Shown here piece by piece: positions 2,867 to 26,382 of a DNA stretch of 29,656 bases; the stretch's first letter is position 1, and each line of letters opens with the position of its first letter. The stretch is from a virus: the IMG/VR virus record IMGVR_UViG_3300034104_001088, positions 1 to 29,656 of that record; one strand, written 5' to 3'. A model generated the notes under the pieces. That model was not told where the DNA came from. It did no database searches and saw only the letters and a list, made by a program, of their open reading frames with translations. Both the position numbers and the translations under genes were made by a program.

Positions 2867-4084
2867 ATGAAGTTAGTAAACATATCGGACGTAAAGCCAA
2901 ACCCAAAGAACCCAAGAATAATAAAAGATGGAAAATTCCAAAAGTTAGTTAAATCTATCCAAGAGTTCCCTGATATGTTAAATAAACGCCCTCTAATCGT
3001 TTTTACTGACGTAGATGATAAATACGTTGTATTAGGCGGTAATATGCGTTTAAAAGCCTTAAATGAGCTAAAATTTAAAGAAATACCAATTATAGTAGCA
3101 GACGAATGGACGGAGGAACAGAAAAACGAATTTTTAATTAAAGATAATGTAGGTTTTGGAGAATGGGATTGGGATAGCTTAGCAAATGAATGGGACGCTG
3201 AAAAATTAGACGATTGGGGTTTGGATTTACCTATTGATTTACACGTTGTGGAATTAGAAGCCGAAGAAGATAATTACGAAATACCAAACGAAATTGAAAC
3301 CGATATTGTTTTAGGCGACTTATTCGAAATAGGCGAACACAGGTTACTTTGCGGGGATAGTACTTGCAGTGATACCGTTGCAAAGTTGATGAATGGAGAG
3401 AAAGCCGATATGGTGTTTACAGACCCTCCTTATAATATAGATTTCAAAGATGATAAAAACAGAAAAATACTAAATGATAATTTAGGCGAAGGTTTTGAAG
3501 AGTTTATTTGCGATATAGTCAATAATATAGTTTTATTTGTAGATAAAGGTGCAGTTTATATGTGTTTTTCACAAAGATTTATTTTAGACTATACAAAAGC
3601 AATAAAAGAAGCAAACATAAAAGATTATGATTTAATTATATGGTATAAAGATACGACAATGAGAATGGGAAAAGATTACAGAAATTATTACGAACCTATT
3701 TGGCTGTTGAGAATAAATGGGCCTGTTTTTTATGGAGAAAGAGAGTTTGAAAAAAATGTTTGGGAAATAAATTCAATACACTCAGCAGGTAGTAAAGATG
3801 ATAGTGGCAAATCTTGGTTTCAAGGAGGCAATAAAGATTTAACATTGCACCCAACACAAAAACCAATACAAGTACCAACAAAAGCAATAAATAATAGTTC
3901 AAAAGCAAATGATTTAATACTTGATTTATTTTTAGGTAGCGGCTCAACAATGGTAGCAGCACACCAACTAAAACGCAAATGTTATGGTACGGAATTAGAC
4001 CCGAAATACTGCCAAGTTATCATTGACCGTATGAAGAAACTTGACCCGAGTTTAGTTATTAAGAAGAACGGAGTTGAAATCTAA
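2867..4084 (+). CDS. ParB-like domain fused to DNA methyltransferase, 405 aa
   Basis: Residues 1-120 form a ParB/Srx-like domain (ISDVKPNPKNPR, then VVLGGNMRLKALNEL around 54-68). The rest is an S-adenosylmethionine-dependent DNA methylase. TDPPYNI at 185-191 is the catalytic motif IV and LDLFLGSGST near 352-361 is the SAM-binding motif I. Motif IV before motif I is the beta-class order, used by N6-adenine or N4-cytosine enzymes. No restriction enzyme is nearby, so it is an orphan methylase, probably protecting phage DNA from host restriction or marking it for packaging. The central part is more AT-rich than both ends, suggesting exchange of the target-recognition region. Confidence 0.93.
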   Translation: MKLVNISDVKPNPKNPRIIKDGKFQKLVKSIQEFPDMLNKRPLIVFTDVDDKYVVLGGNMRLKALNELKFKEIPIIVADEWTEEQKNEFLIKDNVGFGEWDWDSLANEWDAEKLDDWGLDLPIDLHVVELEAEEDNYEIPNEIETDIVLGDLFEIGEHRLLCGDSTCSDTVAKLMNGEKADMVFTDPPYNIDFKDDKNRKILNDNLGEGFEEFICDIVNNIVLFVDKGAVYMCFSQRFILDYTKAIKEANIKDYDLIIWYKDTTMRMGKDYRNYYEPIWLLRINGPVFYGEREFEKNVWEINSIHSAGSKDDSGKSWFQGGNKDLTLHPTQKPIQVPTKAINNSSKANDLILDLFLGSGSTMVAAHQLKRKCYGTELDPKYCQVIIDRMKKLDPSLVIKKNGVEI

Positions 4085-15371: not shown

Positions 15372-15785
15372 ATGCCAGATAAAGAATTTAAGTTAAAATA
15401 CAAAATAAGAAATAAAGCTGCGCAGGTATTAAAACGAGTTATTAAAGAGGATGCGTTAATAGATACTGGAACGCTTTACGAATCAATACGTATCAATGCT
15501 AAATTTACTACGGATGGCAATTTAAGAATTGAAATTTTGGCAGCTTATTACTTTGGTTTCTTGAATAACGGAACTATAAGTATCGAACCGTATCATTTAG
15601 TAAAACAGTTTAACAAACGTCTTGAAATGGACGGCATCATATCGGAAATGTATGCGCAATACATTGAATGGCTTTCGAGCAAATATCCACTTGTCCAAGT
15701 TGCGGGAATGTTACGTAAAAAACAACGTGTTATTTATGATTTCAATCCGTTATTTGGTGAGTTTTGGGCGGCGTTGGAATATTAG
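15372..15785 (+). CDS. HK97-gp10-like neck/head-tail joining protein, 137 aa
   Basis: Early in the protein, LIDTGTLYESIRI followed by AAYYFGFLNNGT is the pattern of the HK97 gp10 family (a DTG-L--S motif, later an Y--F---GT block). These proteins sit at the head-tail joint or act as tail completion factors. The gene ends in a 4-base overlap with the stop of the convergent minus-strand gene at 15782, with no terminator between. Assignment to the family is fairly sure; the exact role in the neck is not. Confidence 0.75.
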   Translation: MPDKEFKLKYKIRNKAAQVLKRVIKEDALIDTGTLYESIRINAKFTTDGNLRIEILAAYYFGFLNNGTISIEPYHLVKQFNKRLEMDGIISEMYAQYIEWLSSKYPLVQVAGMLRKKQRVIYDFNPLFGEFWAALEY

Positions 15786-16522
15786 ACGTTCAATTCTTTT
15801 TTCATTCCTAAAAAATTAAATACCAAAATCAAGGGTAATTCACAAACGGCGTTAAACTTTGTTAAGTCTTCATTGCATAGGTGCCAAATGAGTTGCTCCC
15901 ACGCCCATTTCTTTTGTTTCTTTTCCTCTTCGACGGTTTTTAAATCTTCAGCGTCCATGTTTTGGTCAACTTCAAAATCGTCTTCATAACTTTCAATCAT
16001 TAAATTTTTATATTGGTCAATAATACCCTCTCGAAATTTTATATATTCAGGAAGCAAGCCGTAAACTTCAGTAATTGGAAAATCTAAAAACCAATCTAAA
16101 CGGTCATTTGAATTGAAATTATAAGGTTCAAGTATTTCATCGTCCCACTCATTAACACGGACACGCCTGTAAAGTATTGCAATAATATTTAAAAGCTTTT
16201 CAATGTAGTTATCTGAGAAATATGCTTCTAAACTTATAAATTCGCCAAGCGTTATTTTATTAAAAGGCTTTAATGTAAAGTTACCTATCTTTTTATTGTA
16301 GTTTTTTGGCGGTTCATCGCGAATAAATTTAACCTCTATTAATAGTTCGTCAAGTTCTTCAATTGCTAAATGGTCCAAATCTTCTGGATAGCAATCTAAA
16401 AGCGTGCAAAGAACGTCTATTTGATAATTGAAAACGCCTTCATCCTGTGACAAAGTGCGCAGTTCAATAAAGGATTCAATCGTTATTTGATTCCACGCTT
16501 TCGGAAGCTTGTTTTTCAGCAT
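15782..16522 (-). CDS. Probable tail assembly chaperone, second frame, 246 aa
   Basis: Encoded on the minus strand, unlike almost the whole genome. The N-terminus (KAWNQITIESFIELRTLSQD) and a later segment (FNKITLGEFISLEAY, near residue 88) repeat the same pattern, NxITIxxF, which also begins the neighbouring 180-aa protein, so the two look related. The acidic, helical C-terminus ends in a Trp/Lys-rich stretch. Genes of this kind lie next to tape measure genes and are often joined by frameshifting (G/GT type). It overlaps the 180-aa gene by 47 bases in another frame and converges on the gp10-like gene. Confidence 0.7.
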   Translation of the reverse strand: MLKNKLPKAWNQITIESFIELRTLSQDEGVFNYQIDVLCTLLDCYPEDLDHLAIEELDELLIEVKFIRDEPPKNYNKKIGNFTLKPFNKITLGEFISLEAYFSDNYIEKLLNIIAILYRRVRVNEWDDEILEPYNFNSNDRLDWFLDFPITEVYGLLPEYIKFREGIIDQYKNLMIESYEDDFEVDQNMDAEDLKTVEEEKKQKKWAWEQLIWHLCNEDLTKFNAVCELPLILVFNFLGMKKELNV

Positions 16523-17018
16523 GGTTTGATATAGTTTCTGTTACAAATGTAATGTAAGGTATTGCAATTTCTGCGGGTTGCGTTCTAAATAACTTTGCTT
16601 TGTGCTTCAAATGTGCTGAATCGTAATGTTCAGCGTTACTCAAATCGGTTCTTTTAAACATCAAAGCCATAATATCGGACACGCTATGTTTGTTTTCTTT
16701 GACAATCATTTTTTCGATTAGTTTAGTATCCTTAACAGATAGCTTAAATTCAGCTTTGTAAGTAAATCCGTCAATGTCTATTACGCTAATTGGATTTTTT
16801 TTATCGTAATTATCTGTATTAAATTCTTTTGTCTTTTCAACAAAGTATTTAAAGTCGTCCCATTCGTCCTCTTCGACTCCTACAACTTCAAAAACCTTAA
16901 TTTGTTTTTCTATATTGTCAAGCTCTTTGTCGTTATGAATTGCAGAAATTTTTTCGAATTCATCAATAGTTATTTCGTTCATTTTGTTGGCAATGTTACG
17001 CCCAAATACTTCAATCAT
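16476..17018 (-). CDS. Probable tail assembly chaperone, first frame, 180 aa
   Basis: First gene of the minus-strand pair. NEITIDEFEKISAIHNDKEL near residues 14-33 has the same NxITIxxF start pattern as the 246-aa protein, and the rest is helical and charged. The start is either ATG at 17018 or the internal Met13 (16982); the promoter at 17035-17042 leaves only a very short leader for the first. It would act during tail assembly by binding the tape measure before tube polymerisation. An alternative is that both are unrelated regulators, but position and paired out-of-frame overlap favour chaperones. Confidence 0.7.
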   Translation of the reverse strand: MIEVFGRNIANKMNEITIDEFEKISAIHNDKELDNIEKQIKVFEVVGVEEDEWDDFKYFVEKTKEFNTDNYDKKNPISVIDIDGFTYKAEFKLSVKDTKLIEKMIVKENKHSVSDIMALMFKRTDLSNAEHYDSAHLKHKAKLFRTQPAEIAIPYITFVTETISNHAEKQASESVESNND

Positions 17019-24544: not shown

Positions 24545-24635
24545 GGTTTGGCTTCACACTATAAAACCTAAAGATGTTATTGAACCTCTTAATGAATTTG
24601 GACGTGAAGCCCCAAAGGATTTAAGGGGTTTTTTT
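24545..24635 (+). ncRNA. Structured leader or small RNA with attenuator layout
   Basis: Between the promoter and a terminator lies a region with an exact 8-bp inverted repeat, GGCTTCAC (24550-24557) and GTGAAGCC (24604-24611). Its right arm shares two C residues with the terminator stem that follows. Inside the loop a 16-codon frame at 24574-24624 (MLLNLLMNLDVKPQRI) begins Leu-rich and ends within the terminator loop. This is the layout of a transcription attenuator with leader peptide, placed before the replication operon. A stand-alone small RNA of about 90 nt is the other reading. Confidence 0.5.
24610..24635 (+). terminator. Terminator ahead of the replication operon
   Basis: CCCC (24610-24613) pairs with GGGG (24625-24628), and the stem can extend outward through GAAG against the T run. 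Seven T follow the last G. Genes start again at 24657 with no new promoter seen in the gap, so read-through must be allowed. Confidence 0.75.
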
Positions 24636-24656
24636 ATTTATTTTAAATTTTATAAA

Positions 24657-24809
24657 ATGAAAAGTGTTTATTATTTAATTGAAATTACAAAACATCATTC
24701 CAAAGCAAACGATATTTATTGGTATTCAGTTATTTATTCTAATGGGTTAGAGTTAATTGATAAAGAATATACGATTGGAGAATCAATTCCTACAATTGTT
24801 TTAAAATGA
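24657..24809 (+). CDS. Hypothetical protein, 50 aa
   Basis: MKSVYYLIEITKHHSKANDI opens a small beta-rich frame (YWYSVIYSNGLELIDKEYTI). Its stop overlaps the start of the replication initiator as ATGA, strong support that it is translated. First gene after the structured leader. No family was recognised. Confidence 0.65.
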   Translation: MKSVYYLIEITKHHSKANDIYWYSVIYSNGLELIDKEYTIGESIPTIVLK

Positions 24810-25441
24810 GTGGATGGATTAAAATACATCGCAAGTTTTTAGACTGGGAGTGGTTTAATAAAAGCGAAGCAGTTCATCTGTTTATGTATTTAGTTTTAAA
24901 AGCCAACTATAAAGATGGACAATGGCAAGGAATTGATATTAAAAAAGGTCAATTTGTTACGTCTTTCGGTAAGATTTCAACCGATACAGGAATCAGTTTA
25001 CAAACGATTAGAACGCTTTTAAAAAAGTTTGAAAAATCAAATGAAATTAACATACAAACAACAAACAAATATAGTGTTGTAACTATCTGTAAATATGAAT
25101 GTTACCAAAAAGAAACTGAAACAACTAACGAGCAACTAACAAACAAACAACAATCAGCTAACAATCAACTAACAACAAACAAGAATGATAAGAATGATAA
25201 AGAAATATTATTAGACACTTGGGTTGAATATCGTAAGCAAATTAGAAAGCCAATTAAACAAGCTACGATTGAAGTAATTTACAAAAAGATGTTAGAACAT
25301 ACATTTGAAGATTGTAAGTTTGTAATTGATAATTCTATTGAGAATGGTTGGCAAGGTTTATTTTGGGATAAGATACCTACGAAACAACAATATGAAATAG
25401 ACCCATTAGTAGAATACGTTAACAAACAACTTGGATTATGA
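24806..25441 (+). CDS. Replication initiator / DnaD-like protein, 211 aa
   Basis: Residues 1-100 form a winged-helix domain of the phage replication-protein type: SGWIKIHRKFLDWEWFNKSE, LKANYKDGQWQGIDIKKGQF, SFGKISTDTGISLQTIRTLL. A Gln/Asn/Thr-rich linker (105-132) holds the DNA iteron array. The C-terminal part (133-211, LDTWVEYRKQIRKPIKQATI, NGWQGLFW) resembles DnaD/DnaB-II domains that load helicase. It overlaps the helicase gene as ATGA. It would bind the origin, probably within its own gene, and recruit the helicase encoded next. Confidence 0.85.
   Translation: MSGWIKIHRKFLDWEWFNKSEAVHLFMYLVLKANYKDGQWQGIDIKKGQFVTSFGKISTDTGISLQTIRTLLKKFEKSNEINIQTTNKYSVVTICKYECYQKETETTNEQLTNKQQSANNQLTTNKNDKNDKEILLDTWVEYRKQIRKPIKQATIEVIYKKMLEHTFEDCKFVIDNSIENGWQGLFWDKIPTKQQYEIDPLVEYVNKQLGL
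25122..25176. repeat. Five 11-bp iterons, probable replication origin
   Basis: Units start at 25122, 25133, 25144, 25155 and 25166, each 11 bp, with consensus CAACTAACAAN (the third unit is the most divergent: CAAACAACAAT). An 11-bp period places all units on nearly the same DNA face. A short tandem repeat of AGAATGATA and an AT-rich stretch follow at 25182-25220. Iterons inside the initiator gene are known from lambda gene O. An origin here is inferred. Confidence 0.65.
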
Positions 25442-26382
25442 AAGGAGATGCTACTCAATACCTACTTGACTATAAACACGGAAAAATTAAAAAGGGTTAT
25501 GGAATAGATTGCTTTTTAGACAACCATCTTAGATTTAAACGCAAACAGCTTAATATAATTTTAGGACATGACAACGTAGGTAAGACTTACTGGATAAATT
25601 GGTATTTCTTGACATTGGCAATAAAACACGAATTGAAGTTTTGTATCTGGAGCGGTGAAAATCAAAAAGGGCAAATCTTGCGTGACATGATTCAAATGTA
25701 TTTAGGGCAAAAGTTTACTGAAATTGAAGATTCAAAGATATTAAGCACGGCAACATTTTTAGAACAGTATTTCGACTTTATTCCAAACGACAAACTTTAT
25801 AAACCTACTGAACTTTTAAAGCTATTTAAGGAAAGCGAATGCGATGCAGCATTAATTGACCCTTTTACTGGATTAGATAGGGCTATGAATTTCGAAGGCA
25901 ACTATCAATTTTTGAATGAAGCACGGCAATTTGTTAACGAATCAGGAATAACAATTTACATAAACACGCACCCAAATAGCGAAAGTGGTCGAAGTGGTAA
26001 TTTATACGGTGAAAATCATATGTGGAAAGGTCATCTGAAACCCCCATTGAAAGACCACGTTGAGGGTGGAAAGGCTTTTTTAAATAGATGCGATGATATG
26101 TTTGTAATTCATAGGCTAATAAAACACGAATCAATGAAGTATTACACTATGGTAAACGTTGAAAAGATTAAAGACTTAGACACTGGTGGAATGCACACGA
26201 GATTAGATGAACCGATACTTTGTGAATTTAACAACGGATTAGGATTTAAAATTAATTCAGTTGATCCGATCAGAAACACGAAACCAATATCAAATAGTTT
26301 TCCAACTTCGAAACCCGATATAGTAAACGGAAAAGAATTACTTTCGTTTAGCGAAAAGATGAAAAAAGATGTTCCTTTTTGA
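25438..26382 (+). CDS. DnaB-like replicative helicase (RecA fold), 314 aa
   Basis: A RecA-type ATPase core without the DnaB N-terminal domain. Walker A is GHDNVGKT (43-50), a catalytic-type SGEN follows at 72-75, Walker B is ALIDP (138-142, Asp141), and YINTHPN (174-180) fits motif III. KGGKAFLNRCDD-like sequence near 210 fits the arginine-finger or loop region. The C-terminus is Pro/Ser-rich. It follows the initiator gene by ATGA overlap, the normal loader-helicase order. Shorter than host DnaB (about 450-500 aa), like other phage forms. Role: unwinding the phage replication fork. Confidence 0.88.
   Translation: MKGDATQYLLDYKHGKIKKGYGIDCFLDNHLRFKRKQLNIILGHDNVGKTYWINWYFLTLAIKHELKFCIWSGENQKGQILRDMIQMYLGQKFTEIEDSKILSTATFLEQYFDFIPNDKLYKPTELLKLFKESECDAALIDPFTGLDRAMNFEGNYQFLNEARQFVNESGITIYINTHPNSESGRSGNLYGENHMWKGHLKPPLKDHVEGGKAFLNRCDDMFVIHRLIKHESMKYYTMVNVEKIKDLDTGGMHTRLDEPILCEFNNGLGFKINSVDPIRNTKPISNSFPTSKPDIVNGKELLSFSEKMKKDVPF

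Follow-up and report, generated by a model that had tools for sequence, protein, structure and literature searches.

Introduction

Phage lambda carries its origin within gene O, where iterons in the middle of the gene are followed by A+T-rich DNA (PMC7466680). At oriL of phage SPP1, direct repeats lie within the gene for the initiator gp38 together with an A+T-rich unwinding element, and a second origin is found elsewhere in the genome (PMC6316719). Plasmids of the pSK41 RepA_N type encode an initiator whose winged helix binds repeats within its own gene, in the part that codes for the linker, and in the chimera pPR9 the N-terminal domain and the origin have been swapped together for a phage-like one (PMC5703833). 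The closest described case is phage L, in which six 11-bp repeats (TGTCCAACGGA) within gene 18 have been published as the likely origin (PMC8022706).

Here we describe a 29,656-nt stretch of viral DNA (IMG/VR record IMGVR_UViG_3300034104_001088; the whole stretch is termed the window), for which a reading of the letters and open reading frames (the sequence-only reading) had proposed an in-phase array of 11-bp units inside a replication initiator gene as a candidate origin, with lambda as the precedent. In the case of the O proteins of three lambdoid phages, Sf6, HK620 and L, this precedent amounts to homology: the N-terminal domain of the window's initiator is homologous to theirs (E about 1e-8 to 1e-13), their records annotate a putative rep_origin inside the initiator gene, and 11-bp repeats are shared as well (the array unit of Sf6 is TTGTCCAACGG). 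These phages differ from the window in having two array blocks, which give an 11/22-bp signal, and in having other A+T-rich flanking DNA in place of AAGAATGAT, the second element described below. To lambda itself the likeness is by description, its iterons being inverted repeats of about 19 bp, whereas the array here consists of 11-bp direct units and no inverted repeats were found at it. Likeness to SPP1 gp38 is in layout and by description only; the pSK41-type RepA_N plasmids have a different initiator domain and four Rep boxes. Judged by homology, then, an 11-bp origin within the initiator gene is of a kind already known from phage L and the lambdoid O-type phages. What the window appears to add is the second element, a tandem AAGAATGAT at fixed spacing behind arrays that are unrelated to one another.

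The initiator gene and its surroundings

The features of the locus are mapped in Table 1. The 211-aa product matches the profiles PHROG 2514 (E=9e-32), PHROG 186 (E=3e-17) and the O-like PHROG 678 (E=3e-13), which place it among the DnaD-like/O-like phage replication initiators; against RepL (Pfam PF05732) it scores 19.1 bits, below the gathering cut-off of 20.3. An AlphaFold model, built on a close alignment (A2) of ten relatives and having a mean pLDDT of 67, predicts with moderate confidence an N-terminal winged helix, a linker and a separate C-terminal domain; the order of elements is that of a winged helix, and the domain lies at about residues 15-101. A fold search of the PDB returned generic winged helices only, none at E<=0.001, and a PDB sequence search gave nothing useful.

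Table 1. Features of the initiator locus, in window coordinates
Feature	Positions	Strand	Basis or remark
Initiator gene, 211 aa, DnaD-like helicase loader/O-like	24806-25441	+	PHROG profiles; homology to lambdoid O proteins
Winged-helix DNA-binding domain (predicted), aa 1-101	24806-25108	+	AlphaFold pLDDT about 80-88 over aa 21-100
Disordered linker (predicted), aa 102-127, with the array within	25109-25186	+	pLDDT<50 over aa 102-127
Iteron array, five 11-bp units, CAACTAACAAN	25122-25176	+	Tandem Repeats Finder; null models; codon identity
Fixed spacer CAAAC from array to 9-mer	25176-25180	+	C shared with unit 5
Two AAGAATGAT copies, conserved second element	25181-25198	+	Exact copies at 25181-25189 and 25190-25198
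A+T-rich stretch, proposed unwinding region	25181-25215	.	17% G+C
Helical C-terminal domain (predicted), about aa 131-180	25196-25345	+	AlphaFold model; freely exchanged among relatives
RecA-fold replicative helicase gene	25438-26382	+	PHROG 18375/239 primase-helicase; PHROG 19 DnaB-like

As is characteristic of the family, the gene adjoins that of a replicative helicase, whose start overlaps the initiator stop (ATGA); the early region also carries NinG, Erf and YqaJ-like exonuclease genes. Upstream of the initiator gene, positions 24628-24687 are the most A+T-rich 60 bp nearby (8% G+C) and adjoin a possible terminator stem. Far from this locus, positions 2867-4084 encode a 405-aa protein that, read from its sequence, has an apparent ParB-like N-terminal domain and a DNA methyltransferase (DPPY motif).

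The iteron array

The five units begin at 25122 (CAACTAACGAG), 25133 (CAACTAACAAA), 25144 (CAAACAACAAT), 25155 (CAGCTAACAAT) and 25166 (CAACTAACAAC), as had been proposed. The column majority is matched at 48 of the 55 positions, unit 3 being the least consensus-like, and no other 5x11 window in the 29.6 kb comes close to this score; Tandem Repeats Finder reports the same array (25122-25175, period 11, 4.9 copies). The tandem direct repeats in the linker-coding DNA exceed chance: in 20,000 trials each, shuffling of codon order or bases never attained the array score, and synonymous codons drawn at random for the array peptide attained it in 0.015%.

The last of these null models bears on whether the repeats could simply follow from a linker peptide of low complexity (Asn/Gln/Thr/Lys) in a genome rich in A, the linker being disordered and such linkers using A- and C-rich codons. 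Besides the rarity with which recoding attains the score, this explanation is opposed by the reading of the units in all three frames (codon phases 1,0,2,1,0, confirming the sequence-only reading on this point) and by the state of the two-fold synonymous codons, which in 62 distinct relatives are 99.5% identical within the array and 100% identical in the NKN codons, against 77% in the DNA-binding domain. It is opposed too by GC-richer relatives, whose 11-bp arrays are of different composition (GCAAAGGGCAA in a Cellulophaga phage, AGCAGCGGGAC in a Sulfitobacter phage), and by arrays in non-coding DNA (below). On the strength of the recoding nulls, the frozen synonymous codons and the non-coding copies we reject the idea that a low-complexity peptide gave rise to the repeats, considering it highly improbable.

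Period and unit sequence among relatives

Relatives were pooled from 80 IMG/VR loci, phage records and further scans, and included 27 whose DNA-binding domain is of a second type; 258 initiators fell into 53 clusters whose DNA-binding domains are <65% identical. Within the linker-coding DNA, 11 bp was the best period in 38 clusters and 22 bp in four, so that the spacing is kept in 42 of the 53 diverged clusters, and a control segment of the same genes was flat. Period 9 was best in eight clusters, several of which owe it to the 9-mer AAGAATGAT; a few clusters have no clear period-11 signal. The units themselves differ in sequence, for example ACAACAAATCA in Staphylococcus, GCTAACAAACA in Listeria and CCATCAAGTGT in Lactobacillus. 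One record with a DnaD-like replisome organizer and an exonuclease (PP511318.1, Dulem virus 31; 35.8 kb; our locus L110) is classed as Microviridae, a taxonomy that looks wrong.

The sequence-only reading had expected the repeat to change with the DNA-binding domain while its spacing is kept, and both hold among these relatives. Where two DNA-binding domains are at least 80% identical but the C-termini unrelated, array similarity is 0.81; for unrelated pairs it is 0.58. The case named as damaging to the proposal, in which winged helices are nearly identical but repeats unrelated or absent, was not found among these relatives. Two pairs of loci illustrate the contrast. L018 and L064 have C-terminal domains that are 95% alike and DNA-binding domains that are 48% alike, and their arrays are unrelated (0.59, at the 0.58 baseline); L019 and L061 have identical DNA-binding domains and unrelated C-termini, and their arrays are alike (0.85). 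Within the window's own cluster several unrelated C-terminal domains have been swapped in, with the DNA-binding domain and the array constant. The separation is not absolute, since all pairs with alike C-termini whose DNA-binding domains are <55% identical have, taken together, a mean array similarity of 0.73, which we tentatively attribute to staphylococcal pairs with alike arrays. By these comparisons it is the DNA-binding domain, not the C-terminal one, with which the unit sequence co-varies.

The second element

The two AAGAATGAT copies are the only ones in the window and lie in frame in the initiator gene. They open a stretch whose G+C content (Table 1) compares with 29% for the initiator gene, so that by composition an A+T-rich region suited to unwinding is present next to the array. 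The sequence-only reading had taken the repeat and the A+T-rich DNA for a melting region; both are there, and what does not stand is that this is a mere melting region, for AGAATGATA is the more conserved half.

Many relatives have AC(A/T)AAC and then tandem AAGAATGAT directly past the last unit. A scan of IMG/VR with the 25-mer AAGAATGATAAGAATGATAAGAATG, which detects the perfect form only, gave 81 stretches; 79 of the 80 examined lie in initiators of the DnaD-like/O-like family and the remaining one is truncated, nearly all matches standing directly behind an array with units of its own. The same peptide written as a 25-mer with AAA codons gave four stretches in IMG/VR, none in an initiator. 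The Lys codon AAG is correspondingly frequent in Lys-Asn pairs of the linkers (82/100, against 11/58 elsewhere; P=7e-15), and also in clusters that had not been retrieved by peptide (33/43 against 4/38; P=1e-9).

Some loci had been retrieved partly by the peptide NKNDKNDK, and these were set aside in a second calculation of prevalence: AAGAATG lies no more than 150 nt past the DNA-binding domain in 13 of 35 clusters not selected by peptide, and in 19 of 35 when AATAATG is counted (control segments, 0/35 and 1/35). The element is common among relatives, not universal; enterobacterial members have other A+T-rich DNA in its place. The pattern AAACAAGAATGATAAGAATG, searched in about 1190 genomes of three orders, gave five matches, too few for an estimate of prevalence: all are in initiator genes, four of them in the genomes that had served as centres, and the fifth, L358, is new.

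Alignment of 57 dereplicated sequences on the 9-mer shows the spacer C[AT][AT]AC at -5 to -1 in most of them and a degenerate core AC[AC]A at -9, -20, -31 and -42; the steps are of 11 bp, and array and 9-mer therefore keep a constant register even though the units are unlike. Column information for this register is 18.6, and the highest value among 500 in-frame shifts was 14.5.

The fixed register, held in phages of unrelated hosts, also weighs against AAGAATGAT being a recombination boundary for swaps of the C-terminal domain instead of a working part of the origin. C-terminal domains do change just 3' of AAGAATGAT, and boundary sequences of this sort have been suggested in lambdoid phages (Sf6 annotation), but the non-coding copies described below have no domain to swap. 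We regard a boundary in place of an origin part as unlikely; AAGAATGAT may serve as both.

At B. subtilis oriC, DnaD binds paired 5'-TnnT-3' motifs as single strand (PMC10201434). The lower strand of AAGAATGAT has T at every third base and hence many TnnT motifs, and the initiator is DnaD-like; this likeness is a lead only, because Lys/Asn/Asp codons impose TnnT. A DnaA-trio reading of AAGAATGAT was rejected, there being no fit to the trio consensus. The 17-mer AAGAATGATAAGAATGA was not found in the literature searched, in which shorter forms match unrelated papers only among those listed; nor was a family-wide 11-bp rule or the AAGAATGAT element, the Weigel and Seitz 2006 review lying outside the scope of that search.

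Copies in non-coding DNA

Phage Lily of Paenibacillus larvae (NC_028841.1) has three 11-bp units followed by AAGAATGATAAAGAATGATAAGAAT, with stops in all frames there; the copy is intergenic, near the right genome end (about 1458-1540 of our locus L352), and the segment recurs at >90% identity in about 70 other P. larvae phage records. Two origin-like copies with different 11-bp units lie in unannotated DNA of pDMB13, a mobilizable 6.6-kb plasmid of Bacillus safensis (NZ_CP150834.1; about 1452-1530 and 1660-1735 of locus L351). One is similar to origins that lie within the initiator genes of elements from Staphylococcus, Lactobacillus and Enterococcus. The other is 83% identical to a stretch inside the initiator gene of a B. 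altitudinis plasmid, in which AAGAAT recurs every 8 bp and hence out of frame. The DnaD-like profile PHROG 186 detected no initiator in pDMB13 or Lily, and pDMB13 may borrow the initiators of resident phages or phage-plasmids.

The non-coding copies, in the Paenibacillus phages as in pDMB13, retain both halves, array and 9-mer. From those in Lily and pDMB13 it follows that selection acts on the DNA; the proposal that it does so, rather than on a repeated peptide, is upheld by these copies together with the recoding nulls and the near-frozen synonymous codons. A Porphyromonas phage record (PP754928.1; about 1450-1540 of locus L353) has array and 9-mer in an apparent frameshifted initiator remnant, annotated on the other strand only.

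Discussion

The segment from 25122 to about 25215 is very probably the replication origin of this phage, situated inside its own initiator gene. The array, its period, its co-variation with the DNA-binding domain and the homologues with a putative rep_origin all favour the candidate put forward by the sequence-only reading. The winged helix of the 211-aa protein would bind the 11-bp units, as the co-variation strongly implies; with units about one helical turn apart, several protomers could be arranged along the same face of the helix. The resulting nucleoprotein complex would open the adjacent A+T-rich DNA, where the AAGAATGAT repeats, at their fixed distance, would act as an element for unwinding or for single-strand loading; the helicase whose gene comes next would be loaded at the opened repeat.

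Alternatively, the array could be an autoregulatory operator, by which the initiator controls its own transcription while replication begins elsewhere. Binding inside its own gene could indeed also repress transcription, and by gene content the array sits in an early operon. It is placed in mid-gene, however, rather than at a promoter; conservation of the adjacent 9-mer extends across hosts; homologues are annotated with a putative rep_origin at the array; and the pSK41 RepA_N and SPP1 gp38 sites of the same layout are origins (PMC5703833, PMC6316719). An operator alone is thus very unlikely. GC skew shows no switch at 25.1 kb and is positive on both sides, which is a weak test in a phage of 30 kb whose genes lie almost all on the same strand. 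Local skew goes negative at 15782-17018, where two overlapping minus-strand ORFs (246 and 180 aa) stand in an otherwise plus-strand genome.

Beyond this phage, the two-part layout of interchangeable 11-bp repeats and a nearly constant AAGAATGAT recurs among relatives of the initiator gene in phages of very different bacteria. We tentatively suggest, at somewhat less than even chances, that AAGAATGAT is an unrecognised sequence-specific element for unwinding or helicase loading in O/DnaD-type phage origins across phyla, independent of both the iterons and the C-terminal domain, and that small plasmids without an initiator carry such origins for replication by phage proteins.

For many phage genomes the layout gives a rule by which the origin may be found from sequence: 11-bp in-phase repeats in the initiator linker, then AAGAATGAT. 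The many natural pairings of a DNA-binding domain with its cognate repeat are a source from which a recognition code might be learned. The near-invariance of AAGAATGAT raises the question of what reads it, given that neither the DNA-binding nor the C-terminal domain is constant, and the non-coding plasmid copies suggest that elements can borrow phage initiators.
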